Positions 1,569-51,110 of a stretch of 64,000 nt of DNA are shown piece after piece. Under the pieces are notes generated by a model. The model was not told the origin of the DNA. It was given only the letters and a program-made list of their open reading frames with translations, and did no database searches. Source of the stretch: Latilactobacillus sakei subsp. sakei DSM 20017 = JCM 1157 (GTDB lineage Bacteria > Bacillota > Bacilli > Lactobacillales > Lactobacillaceae); the NCBI RefSeq assembly GCF_002370355.1, contig NZ_AP017929.1, forward strand, positions 1,178,001 through 1,242,000. Direction: 5' to 3'. The position numbers and the translations under genes were made by a program. The stretch's first letter is position 1. Every line of letters begins with the position of its first letter.

Positions 1569-3359
1569 ATGGCACAAAAGTATCAATCTGAATGGTCACA
1601 AAAGATATCGACTAAAGAACAGTTTCAAATTATGAAACGACTTTTTGGTTATACCAAGCGCTATAAGAAACAATTTATCGGCGCAATCATCGCAGCAGCG
1701 GGCTTAGCAACGATTAACATTTTGTTGCCGCGCTTATTACAAGTTTTTATGGATCGTTACTTAACGAAACAAACAGCGACAACTCAAATTTTGCTAGGGG
1801 TTGCTGGGTTATATGCCTTAGGGGTTATTTTGAAAGCTATCACGCAGTTTGCCCAATCTTTCCTCTTTGGAATGGGATCAGAACGCGCGATGGAAGATGT
1901 GCGCCGTGATCTTTTTCGTCAGTTGCATCGTTTGGGCATGCGTTATTTTGATCAAACACCTGCTGGATCAATTGTTTCGCGAGTTACCAATGATACGATG
2001 ACGTTAATTGATTATTGGAATGTGTTCCTATCATTATTAGTGGGTTCATTTTCAATTATCTCCGCGTTCATTGCGATGTGGTTATTATCACCGAAGATTG
2101 CACTAGCAACGGCTGGTTTTTTACCAATTTTATTAGTCATTATTTGGTATTACAGCAGTTATAGTGCCAAGGTTTATCGGCATATGCGTGAAAAGTTGAG
2201 TCAATTGAACACTAAGTTGAACGAATCGATTGAAGGGATTACAATTATTCAACAGTTCCGCCAAGAAAAACGACTCACAGCCGAATTTGAATCGGTTAAC
2301 GAAGATTATCTTAAAACAAGAGAAGCAATGATTCGGACTAATTCTTTATTGTTAGCACCGGTCGTTAACTTGCTGTATACACTGGCATTAGTGGTTGTTT
2401 TAACTTTATTCGGGCTTACAGCGTTGCATAGTTTTGTTGCGGCTGGATTGGTTTATGCCTTTACGACGTACGTTAGCAACTTTTTCAATCCGATGACCAA
2501 TATGATGGATTCATTATCCTCATTACAAGATGGGATGGTTGCCGGGCGTCGTATTTTTAGAATTCTGGATCAAACGGAATTTGCACCAGCCCAAGATGCA
2601 GATGCTGCTAGTCAAATTACCGATGGCCGCGTTGAGTTCAAACACGTGTCGTTTTCATATGATGGCAAGCATGAAATTCTCCATGATATTTCGTTTGTCG
2701 TTGAACCGGGCCAAACGGTTGCACTAGTGGGCCATACCGGTTCTGGTAAAAGTTCGATTATCAACGTCATGATGCGCTTTTATGAATTTTATGAAGGCGA
2801 AATTTTAATTGACGGTCAAGATATCCGCAGCTTTCAAACAGCAGAACTACGGCGTAAAATGGGCTTGGTTTTACAAGATGCGTTCATGTTTTACGGGGAT
2901 ATTGCTTCTAATATTCGCTTGTTTAACGATGAAATTACGGATGAACAGATTCAAGCCGCTGCTGAATTTGTTCAAGCGGATGAATTTATTAAGGAATTAC
3001 CAGGCCAATACCATGCACGAGTGATTGAAGGTGGCGCACAATTTTCGAGTGGCCAACGACAATTACTCTCATTTGCCAGAACATTAGTGACCAATCCGAA
3101 GATTCTGGTCTTAGATGAAGCGACTGCCAACATTGATACCGAAACGGAATCAGTAATTCAAACCGGTCTCGCTCGCTTGCGACAGGGACGGACTAGTATT
3201 GCGATTGCCCATCGGTTATCAACAATTCGTGACGCAGAATTAATTCTCGTCTTGGATCAAGGTCAAATTGTCGAACGGGGCAATCACGATAGCTTGGTTG
3301 CACAAAAGGGCCGCTATTATGAAATGTATCAATTACAAAATGGACAGAGTGGGCTATAA
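1569..3359 (+). CDS. ABC exporter subunit, BmrD/YheH-like
   Basis: This 596-residue protein is the partner half-transporter. It has six predicted helices in residues ~35-330 and a C-terminal ATPase domain with Walker A GHTGSGKSS, Walker B ILVLDEA including the catalytic Glu, and an intact H-loop (IAHRLST). Its signature motif is altered to FSSGQ. The pair is therefore complementary: in the dimer, this signature faces the partner's degenerate Walker B and H-loop. One dead and one live ATP site is the known architecture of BmrCD and TM287/288 exporters. The gene follows its partner with a one-base gap and is co-transcribed with it. Its stop codon lies inside the first helix of the structured repeat beginning at 3354, which may double as the 3' end of the message. 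Confidence 0.92.
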   Translation: MAQKYQSEWSQKISTKEQFQIMKRLFGYTKRYKKQFIGAIIAAAGLATINILLPRLLQVFMDRYLTKQTATTQILLGVAGLYALGVILKAITQFAQSFLFGMGSERAMEDVRRDLFRQLHRLGMRYFDQTPAGSIVSRVTNDTMTLIDYWNVFLSLLVGSFSIISAFIAMWLLSPKIALATAGFLPILLVIIWYYSSYSAKVYRHMREKLSQLNTKLNESIEGITIIQQFRQEKRLTAEFESVNEDYLKTREAMIRTNSLLLAPVVNLLYTLALVVVLTLFGLTALHSFVAAGLVYAFTTYVSNFFNPMTNMMDSLSSLQDGMVAGRRIFRILDQTEFAPAQDADAASQITDGRVEFKHVSFSYDGKHEILHDISFVVEPGQTVALVGHTGSGKSSIINVMMRFYEFYEGEILIDGQDIRSFQTAELRRKMGLVLQDAFMFYGDIASNIRLFNDEITDEQIQAAAEFVQADEFIKELPGQYHARVIEGGAQFSSGQRQLLSFARTLVTNPKILVLDEATANIDTETESVIQTGLARLRQGRTSIAIAHRLSTIRDAELILVLDQGQIVERGNHDSLVAQKGRYYEMYQLQNGQSGL

Positions 3360-3510
3360 GTCGGTTATATCCTGAGGATTAACAGAGAGTGGCGAATGAT
3401 GACTGTAAGCCATCGTTTGACATTCGGCGTTAACCGCAAGGATATGACTTATAGCACACGTTTAGATTAGGTTAAGCGGAAGAAGCAATTTCAACAAGCA
3501 CGTTTAGTAC
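3354..3510 (+). repeat. Structured repeat, single dispersed copy plus degenerate tail
   Basis: This element matches the 38.2-kb array. CTATAAGTC (3354-3362) pairs with GACTTATAG (3446-3454), ATATCCT (3367-3373) with AGGATAT (3439-3445), and TTAAC (3379-3383) with GTTAA (3429-3433). The shared internal-loop sequences GCGAAT (3392-3397) and GTTTGA (3415-3420) flank an apical GATG/CATC hairpin. A tail CACACGTTTA follows at about 3456-3465. A second CACGTTTA near 3499-3506 looks like the 3' end of a decayed second unit. The outer helix starts inside the stop codon region of the ABC gene. Confidence 0.8.
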
Positions 3511-36067: not shown

Positions 36068-37021
36068 ATGCGTGTGATTGAATTAATCCATCCCTATTCA
36101 AAAGAACAAGTACCAGCCGAAGAAATTGTCTTAGCACTCGGCTTTTTTGATGGTGTCCACCGGGCACATCAAGCAGTGATTAAGACGGCCAAAGATTTGG
36201 CGGTGCAACAGAACCGCCCATTAGCGGTGATGACCTTTGATATTCATCCTGCGATTGTTTACCGAAATGTCAATCAAGCCGATTTTCGTTATTTATCGAC
36301 AGTTGAACGGAAGCAAGAATTAATGGCTGATTTAGGTGTCGATATTTTATATGTTGTCCATTTTAACGATGGCTTTGCCAAGTTGGCACCCCAAGATTTC
36401 GTCGATCAATACTTAGTGGCGCTCCACGCGAAAACGGTGGTCGCTGGGTTTGATTACACCTATGGTAAAAAAGACATCGCTAATATGCAGACCCTTAGCA
36501 CGTATGCCAAAGATCGTTTTGAAATCGTGACGGTGGCGGAACATGACTATCAAGGCCATAAGATTGGTTCAACTTTGATTCGTGAAAATTTGGATCAAGG
36601 TCAAGTAGCGGCGGCTAACGAGTTGTTAGGTTATGTTTACCAAACGACTGGGGAAGTTGTTCATGGTGAAGCTCGGGGCCGGGAACTCGGCTTTCCAACG
36701 GCTAATATTGAAAGTCAAAAACCGGAACGTTTACCAGGCATTGGGATTTATGCGGTCCGCTTATTGGTTCGCGGCCAATGGTACTGGGGGATGGCGTCAA
36801 TTGGCCGGAACGTAACGTTCCACGCCAATAATCCCGTGACAGTTGAGATTAACTTACTCGACTTTAGTGCGGACATTTATGGTGAACAAGTTAAAGTTGA
36901 GTGGTATCAGTATTTAAGAGGTGAAGTGAAGTTTGATTCGGCGGAAGCGTTGATTGACCAACTCCACCAAGATGAAGCTGATACCCGGACTTATTTTGAG
37001 AAATTAGAGGCCCAACATTAA
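36068..37021 (+). CDS. ribF: Bifunctional riboflavin kinase / FAD synthetase
   Basis: RibF makes FMN from riboflavin and then FAD. The N-terminal nucleotidyltransferase domain shows GFFDGVHRAHQAVI and the ISSTxIR-like GSTLIRENL; the C-terminal kinase domain shows GEARGRELGFPTANI and NPVTVEINLLDF. I start at ATG 36068 (317 residues), after AGGTG, rather than GTG 36059, which is part of that site. The stop shares a base with the hemW start. Confidence 0.97.
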   Translation: MRVIELIHPYSKEQVPAEEIVLALGFFDGVHRAHQAVIKTAKDLAVQQNRPLAVMTFDIHPAIVYRNVNQADFRYLSTVERKQELMADLGVDILYVVHFNDGFAKLAPQDFVDQYLVALHAKTVVAGFDYTYGKKDIANMQTLSTYAKDRFEIVTVAEHDYQGHKIGSTLIRENLDQGQVAAANELLGYVYQTTGEVVHGEARGRELGFPTANIESQKPERLPGIGIYAVRLLVRGQWYWGMASIGRNVTFHANNPVTVEINLLDFSADIYGEQVKVEWYQYLRGEVKFDSAEALIDQLHQDEADTRTYFEKLEAQH

Positions 37022-38160
37022 TGGCAGGAGCATATATTCATATTCCGTTTTGCGAACATATTTGTTATTACTGCGACTTCAACAAGGTCTTCATTGAAGG
37101 CCAACCGGTTGATGAGTATGTTGACATGTTAATTCGCGAGTTTCAATTAGTAATGGCGGAATACCCAGACGAGAAAATTGAAACGATTTATGTCGGTGGT
37201 GGGACACCAACGACACTCTCACCAGCCCAACTACAACGTTTGTTGGATGGCATTCATCAGTACTTACCTTATGAGGGTGGCGAGTTTACGTTTGAAGCCA
37301 ACCCCAATGATTTACAAGATACCGCTAAATTACAGGTACTAAAGGATAACGGCGTCAATCGCTTGAGTATTGGTGTGCAGTCTTTTAATGATGACATTCT
37401 GAAGAAGATTGGCCGGATTCATCGTAGTGCTGACGTTTATCGGGCCATTGCTAATGCGCGTCAAGTGGGTTTTGAAAATATCAGTATTGATTTGATTTTC
37501 CGACTACCGCAACAAAGTGAAGCAGATTTTATGGATAGTTTGAAACAGGCAATCGATCTTGACTTGCCGCATTATTCAACTTATTCATTAATTTTAGAGA
37601 AGAAGACTATTTTCTATAATTTGATGCGTCAGGGTAAGTTACGCTTACCATCGCAAGATGTTGAAGCACACATGTACCAAAATGCGATTGATAGTTTCCA
37701 ACAAGCTGGTTTAGAACAATACGAAATTAGTAATTTTGCCAAACCAGGCTACCAGTCTGCACATAACTTAACCTATTGGCGGAATGAAAAGTATTTCGGC
37801 TTTGGGGCCGGTGCTTATGGCTATTTAGGCAAGGACCGCTACCACAATTTTGGGCCAATCCAACAATATTTAGAACCACTACAAGCGCATAAAGTGCCAG
37901 TGATTGAACGCCACGTGCTTCCCTTGACCGAACAAATGGAAGAAGAACTCTTCTTAGGGCTTCGGACAATGCAAGGTGTCTCAATCAAGCACTTTGAAGA
38001 AAAATTCAGATACCCACTACAGAATATCTACGGCGAAACAGTCGCCAATCAGATTGAAAAAGGGTACCTAAAACAAGAAGGCGACTGGCTAAGACTAACT
38101 GAATCAGGAAAGTTCCTAGGCAACGAAGTCTTCCAGGAATTCTTGTTAGACAGCTACTAA
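37021..38160 (+). CDS. hemW: Radical SAM family heme chaperone HemW
   Basis: A 379-residue radical SAM protein with the cluster motif CEHICYYCDF near residue 10, where the spacing CX3CX2C holds the 4Fe-4S cluster. YVGGGTPTTLS, FEANPNDL and NRLSIGVQSFND follow, and a C-terminal HemN-like domain ends the protein. Such proteins, once called coproporphyrinogen oxidases, bind and hand over heme rather than make it. It begins on the last base of ribF. The tandem structured repeat begins right at its stop codon. Confidence 0.95.
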   Translation: MAGAYIHIPFCEHICYYCDFNKVFIEGQPVDEYVDMLIREFQLVMAEYPDEKIETIYVGGGTPTTLSPAQLQRLLDGIHQYLPYEGGEFTFEANPNDLQDTAKLQVLKDNGVNRLSIGVQSFNDDILKKIGRIHRSADVYRAIANARQVGFENISIDLIFRLPQQSEADFMDSLKQAIDLDLPHYSTYSLILEKKTIFYNLMRQGKLRLPSQDVEAHMYQNAIDSFQQAGLEQYEISNFAKPGYQSAHNLTYWRNEKYFGFGAGAYGYLGKDRYHNFGPIQQYLEPLQAHKVPVIERHVLPLTEQMEEELFLGLRTMQGVSIKHFEEKFRYPLQNIYGETVANQIEKGYLKQEGDWLRLTESGKFLGNEVFQEFLLDSY

Positions 38161-38680
38161 GTGCGTTCAAACCGGTTATATTCCGAGCACTAGCATAACA
38201 AGGCGAATGATTGCTGGAAGTAATTGTTTGACTTGTGACGCTAGGCACAGGAATATGGTTTGAAAAGTACGTTAAAGAAAAGAAATGCGTCATCAACGGG
38301 TTACTTCTGAGCATTTACATAACTTGGCGAATTGACGATGTAATCGTCAGTTTGACAAGTGTTGTAAAGCGCAGAAAGTTGTTGATGAAAGCACGTTAAA
38401 GAAAGAAGTGCGTTCAAGCTTGGTCAACTTTTGAGCATTAGCACAGTGGGGCGAATAAACGACGCAGTCGATTATTTGACGCACGAAGCTAAGCGCAGAA
38501 AGTTAGCTTGAAAAGCACGTTAAAGAAAGAAGTGCGTCATCAACGGGTTACTTCTGAGCATTTACATAACTTGGCGAATTGACGATGTAATCGTCAGTTT
38601 GACAAGTGTTGTAAAGCGCAGAAAGTTGTTGATGAAAGCACGTTAAAAAGAAGTGCGTTCAAACCGGTTATATTTCGAGC
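38161..38680 (+). repeat. Tandem array of ~123-bp structured repeats (4 full units, 1 truncated)
   Basis: Units start with TGCGT at 38162, 38286, 38409, 38533 and 38654, giving periods of 124, 123, 124 and 121. Every unit can fold the same way. In the outer helix, TTCAAACC/GGTTTGAA in unit 1 becomes CATCAAC/GTTGATG in units 2 and 4 and TTCAAGCT/AGCTTGAA in unit 3. The middle helix is CTAGC/GCTAG, TTTAC/GTAAA or TTAGC/GCTAA. The apical hairpin reads TGACGA/TCGTCA in units 2 and 4 and CGAC/GTCG in unit 3. Internal loops stay fixed: GAGCA, GCGAAT opposite RTTTGA, and GCGCA or GGCACA. Units end AGCACGTTAAA. The fifth keeps only its 5' arm. This 600-base gap holds no protein gene. Confidence 0.9.
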
Positions 38681-38700
38681 AAATAGGATGGTGATCATTT

Positions 38701-38794: not shown

Positions 38795-39442
38795 ATGGAC
38801 AAGAATACTTATCAACATTGGTCAGAAACAAAATATTTAAAGGATTTGGTGACAAACCCATTAATTGAAGTCGGCGATTATTCTTACTTTTCGGGGTATT
38901 ATGATCACCAGAATTTTGAGGACGGCTGTGTGCGATATCATTGGGGCGATGATGCCTCACGCGCCTTATTTAATCCACAGACTGAATTTGGTTGGCAATT
39001 GGACCGCCTAATTATTGGCCGTTACGTTTGCATTGCCAGTGGCGTTGTTATTTTGATGGGCGGTAATCATAATCATCATAGTGATTGGATTAGTGCCTAT
39101 CCGTTCCCAGAACAAATTGCGGCCTCTTATGAGCCTAAGGGCGATACAATCATTGAAGACGGTGCGTGGCTTGGGATGCGTGCGTTAATTATGCCTGGCG
39201 TTCATATTGGGCAGGGTGCGATTATCGCTGCCGGTGCGGTGGTGGTTAAGGATGTGCCAGCGTACGCTGTCGTCGGTGGTAATCCAGCACGGGTTTTAAA
39301 GTCACGGTTTACACCAGCTGACATTGAAACCCTGCAAGCAATTGATTGGTACCACTGGCCAATTGAAAAAGTCCAAGCAGCCCAATCAATATTAGCGAGT
39401 CATTCAGTCGCTGATTTACAACAATTTCACGAGAATTATTGA
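38795..39442 (+). CDS. CatB/Vat-like hexapeptide-repeat O-acetyltransferase
   Basis: A 215-residue left-handed beta-helix acetyltransferase of the xenobiotic acetyltransferase group, whose members acetylate chloramphenicol or streptogramin A, though many chromosomal homologues have unknown substrates. Visible features are IEVGDYSYFSGYY, the catalytic His region GGNHNHHSDW, and hexapeptide runs IEDGAWLGMRALIMPG and IGQGAIIAAGAVVVKDVP with NPARVLK at the end. GAGG lies nine bases before the ATG. Resistance activity cannot be claimed from sequence. Confidence 0.85.
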   Translation: MDKNTYQHWSETKYLKDLVTNPLIEVGDYSYFSGYYDHQNFEDGCVRYHWGDDASRALFNPQTEFGWQLDRLIIGRYVCIASGVVILMGGNHNHHSDWISAYPFPEQIAASYEPKGDTIIEDGAWLGMRALIMPGVHIGQGAIIAAGAVVVKDVPAYAVVGGNPARVLKSRFTPADIETLQAIDWYHWPIEKVQAAQSILASHSVADLQQFHENY

Positions 39443-50977: not shown

Positions 50978-51004
50978 GCTTATAAATATAATTCCTTTTA
51001 AGTG

Positions 51005-51080
51005 CAGTCCAGAGAGGCTGACAAAGGAGCGACTATCGGGATTTAATGGCCTCGCTCTGTTTTGGAGTGGGCCTTTTTTG
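51005..51080 (+). promoter_or_regulatory. PyrR-responsive attenuator of codB
   Basis: The PyrR binding-loop consensus is present as AGTCCAGAGAGGCTGACAAA (51006-51025). CAGAGAGGC can pair with GCCTCGCTCTG at 51049-51059 as antiterminator. The terminator is GGCC..GCTC / GAGT..GGCC followed by T6 (51047-51080). Known mechanism: PyrR with UMP binds the loop and frees the terminator, so codB is shut off when pyrimidines are plentiful. Confidence 0.93.
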
Positions 51081-51110
51081 TTTGTGATGGTCGAAGTTGG
51101 AGGAGAGAAA

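Follow-up and report, generated by a model that had tools for sequence, protein, structure and literature searches.

The window, by which we mean the whole analysed stretch of 64,000 nucleotides at 1178001-1242000 of a 1.94-Mb genome, carries behind hemW a tandem array of hairpin units that belong to a large repeat family, related to a known enterococcal repeat; its copies in lactobacilli are not described in the literature searched. The units share one fold whose helices covary, are constrained on the sense strand, are placed at stop codons, are gained and lost as whole units and spread between loci. We conclude that they probably constitute a Lactobacillales-wide, EFAR-like, non-autonomous mobile repeat that lives as an RNA structure in 3′ UTRs and acts in cis.

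The array is composed of four full units of 116-117 nt (38159-38645, plus strand) and a truncated fifth, as had been proposed by a sequence-only reading of this DNA. The length of about 123 bp given there for the element holds for the period (123-124 bp), the units themselves being shorter. That reading overlooked that the array begins at a stop codon, which is a genome-wide rule: the first bases of unit 1 overlap the TAA stop of hemW, whose CDS ends at 38160.

37021-38160, plus strand: hemW (TIGR00539 HemW, above cut-off), its stop codon adjoining the array
38159-38274, plus strand: unit 1 (cmsearch, 123 bits; fold −45.8 kcal/mol, z −7.2)
38283-38398, plus strand: unit 2 (cmsearch, 117.6 bits; z −8.1)
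38406-38522, plus strand: unit 3 (cmsearch, 118.7 bits; z −5.5)
38530-38645, plus strand: unit 4, a near copy of unit 2 (cmsearch, 119.3 bits; z −9.7)
about 38651-38681, plus strand: truncated unit 5, 5′ arm only, resembling unit 1 (from the sequence)

An extra copy had been placed at 3354-3454. The unit is present, with true bounds at 3347-3463 and half a unit behind it; it overlaps the last 13 nt of an ABC transporter CDS (1569-3359; Pfam matches ABC_membrane and ABC_tran).

3347-3463, plus strand: single unit (cmsearch, 102.5 bits)
about 3470-3507, plus strand: degraded further unit, 3′ half (GTTAAGCGGAAGAAGC..AAGCACGTTTAG; from the sequence, below the model threshold)

Between the hemW array and hrcA lies a hexapeptide acetyltransferase gene (38795-39442), whose best NCBIfam matches are the CatB and Vat types, far below the cut-offs. 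The junction on its side truncates unit 5, and no acetyltransferase gene precedes hrcA in the DNA read from the hemW neighbourhoods of five congeners. The only Rfam match within the window is a PyrR binding site (RF00515) at 50990-51082.

Every unit of the window forms one long irregular hairpin of 42 pairs with fixed internal loops and, folded alone, is far more stable than its shuffles (z −4.5 to −9.7). At the base an outer GUGC/GCAC helix, seen in the DNA as terminal inverted repeats GTGC/GCAC, is followed by a variable helix of 7-8 bp, a 4-nt bulge on the 5′ side (GGUU-like) and a helix of 7 bp. The middle consists of the asymmetric loop GAGCA/GCGCA with an invariant bulged A, and then of UUARC/GYUAA; above it come a 3×3 loop, a 5-bp helix, a 1×1 mismatch and CGAAU/RUUUG with a nearly fixed G·U pair. 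The apex is a variable helix, which ends in a GNA triloop in most units of Latilactobacillus, the genus of the window. Family copies are 116-118 nt long and bounded by RAG and CGTT, both standing outside the helices; among 150 units of the window's own genome (hereafter the own genome), the unpaired A124, G40, A46 and A42 are near-invariant along with these termini. Both the common fold and the recurrence of the loops GAGCA, GCGAAU/UUUGA and GCGCA had been recognised from the letters.

So had the helices that change on both sides together, and the example given, UUCAAACC/GGUUUGAA against CAUCAAC/GUUGAUG, is present. RNAalifold of 20 units returned 42 pairs, 30 of which show double compensatory changes. 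When 66 units from other genera and distant congeners were aligned, 95.8% of the pair cells were standard pairs, a value that leans towards the structure because the alignment was fitted to it; double changes, which are independent of the fitting, were found in 40 of the 42 pairs. Neither value was reached in any of 500 shuffles. The covariation score was 0.846, against 0.227 for shuffled alignments and at most 0.152 with the partner slid, and sliding cut the pairing to 42% or less.

The unit is near-palindromic, its reverse strand still scoring 22-33 bits, and might thus operate at the DNA level, as a cruciform or a protein-binding site such as REP/BIME. If a duplex were selected, G·T and A·C mismatches should be equally common. 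On the strand of the model, G·U cells outnumber A·C cells by 559 to 69. The same asymmetry was observed in situ, when 44 units of the window genome were compared with their orthologues in a sister species (identity of about 95% in the neighbouring DNA, most of it coding): by a single change, a Watson-Crick pair had become G·U, or the reverse, 52 times, and A·C, or the reverse, 14 times (null 54:46; p=3e-5), with an excess in both the A-U (24:4) and the G-C class (28:10), and 36 further single changes involved other mismatches. Divergence was 2.8% at paired and 5.9% at unpaired sites, compared with 4.9% in the upstream, mostly coding DNA. The G·U excess together with the slower paired sites shows that selection on the sense strand maintains the fold of resident copies, most simply as RNA, in line with the earlier claim of selection on a single-stranded structure. 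At least one pair-breaking change is present in 29 of the 44 units, so the constraint on single copies is moderate, and part of the in-situ signal could be an effect of gene conversion among copies. The sense-strand constraint favours RNA over a DNA cruciform; since, in addition, no match to the Y1/TnpA_REP transposase (PF01797) was found in the own genome, we hold a DNA-level function to be highly improbable.

The position of the units was analysed by mapping arrays in 55 stretches around the own-genome copies, and stop codons were counted if they closed a same-strand open frame of 80 codons or more. In 64 of 89 arrays the start of the first unit falls between −13 and +12 nt relative to such a stop, against 2 of 89 for the opposite strand and 2.5% for random positions; the other 25 arrays have no stop codon in that interval. 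The most frequent distance is −1, at which the first G of the unit completes TAG, and the peak spans −1 to +8 nt. Similar placement was seen in other genera and distant congeners (33/42) and in two sister species (64/94), and the four copies checked in annotated E. faecalis DNA are preceded by a stop at 1, 3, 7 and 12 nt. Convergent genes have their own units on each strand. Two functions that had been put forward, an independent tandem non-coding RNA gene and a protein-binding RNA sponge, thus find no support: copies follow genes on the same strand, and a search of the region showed no promoter-like site.

The narrow spacing could point to a brake on translation termination, in which the helix would stall ribosomes and lower output, as suggested by analogy with E. 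coli: REPs within 15 nt of the stop codon are reported there to stall ribosomes (Liang et al. 2015, as cited in PMC12306157). The peak at −1 to +8 nt would suit such a brake, but the 25 arrays without a stop codon at that distance would not, nor would an array of another genome (locus L169, 220-668), in which three units directly follow the 3′ end of a tRNA gene and precede an intrinsic terminator. Because of this array, no purely translational role fits all copies, and "end of a transcript's functional part" is a better rule than "stop codon". We consider the brake possible, if rather doubtful.

A stable hairpin at gene ends, which in a subset of units is joined by a terminator as second hairpin, could also be taken for a transcription terminator or attenuator. 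However, an intrinsic terminator is a G+C-rich hairpin followed by a U run, and the units end in CGTT(A/T) and run into A-rich linkers. Many arrays have a separate intrinsic terminator, which lies downstream wherever it is visible, and about a dozen are followed within about 50 nt by the next gene in the same direction. These two observations imply that the unit itself is not the terminator, and we judge this role very unlikely. In the window array, the sole terminator-like match is weak and lies inside unit 1. A Rho-related role was rejected separately, Rho being absent from the own genome and from most sampled Lactobacillaceae, with or without the element.

For a mobile repeat living as a 3′-UTR structure, which is the explanation we prefer, the placement behind the stop codon and ahead of the terminator means that the unit should be in the mRNA 3′ UTR; in sense orientation, it would be transcribed as the first part of that region. 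We infer that units are transcribed and that the hairpin, as RNA, works in cis at the 3′ end of the mRNA. It would most likely set mRNA stability, either as a barrier or as a site of double-strand processing (RNase III, 3′ exonucleases). Its double-stranded RNA would measure up to about 40 bp, with RNase III processing and 3′-exonuclease stalling or protection as the likeliest outcomes. At the closest positions a drag on translation termination is possible, because the helix begins inside the ribosome footprint and may interfere with the terminating ribosome. Copies may persist directly behind genes as harmless, or useful, and a trans-acting enzyme or recombination presumably moves them.

The own genome (1.94 Mb) contains about 150 units (148 matches to the covariance model, 154 units in the stretches around copies), which amount to about 0.9% of its length and mark the ends of nearly ninety transcription units. 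Their distribution has one gap: between 1.256 and 1.620 Mb of the chromosome, a single weak copy (1495654, 57 bits) was found in 364 kb, while copies are frequent elsewhere. Neighbours within an array are no more alike (65.8%) than random pairs of units (64.3%), indicating that units spread between loci, and 99 of 109 arrayed units have their nearest relative at a different locus. Local tandem duplication as the main source of arrays was rejected on the same comparison; one sister-species array does have a duplicated pair.

Comparison of 34 sites with the sister species (~95% identical) showed almost all of them occupied or remnant-bearing in both, and many shared sites differ by whole units (4 to 1, 3 to 1, 1 to 3, 2 to 4). 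Of six congeners, one has no unit at the hemW site, two have a remnant, one a single unit with an internal deletion, and the others 4.3 units and five diverged units. A simple terminator in one species corresponds to a unit plus terminator in the other at two sites. Most "empty" sites are remnants, and the gain and loss of units is precise, target-site duplication being indistinguishable from recombination. This turnover and the spread between loci are the behaviour of a mobile repeat, and recombination between arrays can account for part of it. The search for a mobilising enzyme found none, the own genome giving no match to Y1/TnpA_REP. No phage matched the element, and phage cargo was therefore rejected; among plasmids, only large records of L. 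curvatus and a single one of E. faecalis matched.

Being small, non-coding, dispersed and bounded by terminal inverted repeats, the unit shares these properties with MITEs. It might be a purely selfish MITE, its fold serving only mobilisation through a single-stranded DNA or RNA intermediate and gene 3′ ends being the insertion sites of least harm. Dispersal between loci, the conservation of RAG and CGTT outside the helices, the remnants at many sites and the lack of phage copies would all be consistent with this. Against it stand the excess of G·U-preserving over A·C changes in resident orthologous copies and the slower change at their paired sites, and we regard pure selfishness as rather unlikely.

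At least one copy was detected by the covariance model in 163 of 398 sampled Lactobacillaceae genomes (20 of 40 genera); at most nine candidates were scored per genome, so that per-genome copy counts are lower bounds. Model R2, derived from diverse genera, matched 72 of 295 Lactobacillales genomes, belonging to 30 of 75 genera and six families. The presumed Streptococcus-like family (f4) gave no match among the genomes listed in the scans. In a class-wide sample, five of 300 genomes matched: two in Lactobacillales, two from one genus of another Bacilli family outside that order, one of them with at least 12 copies, and a fifth with a single low-scoring match that resembles a chance hairpin. 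In the genus outside Lactobacillales (L248, L249; G829, G820), the two copies examined are not adjacent to a stop codon, which is 89 nt away in one case and was not found in the other. Copies are abundant in other genomes. Of the options offered by the sequence-only reading, a mobile structured repeat comparable in kind to BOX or REP is the right class.

None of the 4227 Rfam models matched the unit above the gathering threshold, and relaxed thresholds yielded only chance matches of the miRNA or snoRNA kind; the unit resembles Rfam families in being a structured RNA with covariation. The statement that no named family fits was thus correct for Rfam, and needs amending for repeats, since homologous copies in E. 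faecalis resemble Efa-1. Model R2, built without E. faecalis, found eight units in the 747-kb record NZ_CP143580.1 (best E 1.3e-12), seven of which are part of a ~170-bp repeat made of a 118-nt hairpin plus a second hairpin. The EFAR repeats of this species (Enterococcus faecalis) were reportedly described by Venditti et al. in 2007; Efa-1 is probably the same repeat, and the E. faecalis copies found are probably EFAR. Efa-1 is 163 bp long and intergenic, with 65 copies in E. faecalis and a pair of adjacent stem-loops (PMC2267715), and EFAR has been named as a MITE of enterococci (PMC3733652). The E. faecalis copies share with Efa-1 the size, the intergenic place, the double-hairpin form and the lack of coding capacity, and Efa-1, probably the MITE-like EFAR, is the closest known relative. 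In contrast, most units of the window genus have no second hairpin, are strung in tandem up to 4-5 at a time and differ widely in sequence, with about 150 units in the own genome.

The two-stem-loop form of ~163-170 bp is thus not that of the window array, whose units are single hairpins; a subset in the own genome has it. In such units a shared tail (about CATCAATATTYGGATATC) is followed by a GACAAAA..TTTTGTC terminator hairpin, as seen at L072, L079, L090, L095, L103 and one sister-species (G001) site. Unit, tail and terminator apparently move together as a single module, in the manner of the E. faecalis repeat with its two hairpins.

REP, BIME and REPIN elements are likewise interspersed palindromic repeats at gene 3′ ends, often near stop codons, and some GTAG REPs provide a TAG stop as the units do here. 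They differ in that REPs are 20-40 bp long, carry a GTAG or CGTC tag and are tied to TnpA_REP (RAYT), whereas our units have 116 nt and fixed internal loops; identity with REP/RAYT was rejected, the own genome having no Y1 transposase. Integron attC sites also follow stop codons, and were rejected by inspection as the 5′ end of the unit is not RYYYAAC. The BOX elements of Streptococcus pneumoniae are modular structured repeats of similar type (~100-200 bp), enriched between genes that converge and transcribed together with operons as their extensions (PMC3049150), but are made of boxA/B/C modules. The literature searched, with most subscription papers outside it, describes neither Lactobacillaceae copies nor the stop-codon rule nor the sense-RNA constraint.

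A broader proposal, which we find unlikely, would see the units as Bacilli-wide portable 3′-UTR RNA modules: a host factor (an RNase, an RNA-binding protein or the ribosome) would bind the conserved fold, its spread among transcripts would place many genes under one shared post-transcriptional control, and the units might even be copied through their own RNA. Through the stop-codon rule and the sense-strand constraint, an anonymous repeat, for which Rfam has no model despite its share of about 0.9% of a genome, becomes an RNA element that can be tested, and the enterococcal repeat is connected with a much wider family. The turnover among close relatives provides natural experiments, in which one gene is followed by 0, 1, 3 or 5 units. 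Should the RNA prove active, a substantial fraction of the genes of lactic-acid bacteria from food and gut would end in a common, evolutionarily mobile structure, and accounts of mRNA decay and translation termination in these bacteria would have to include it.
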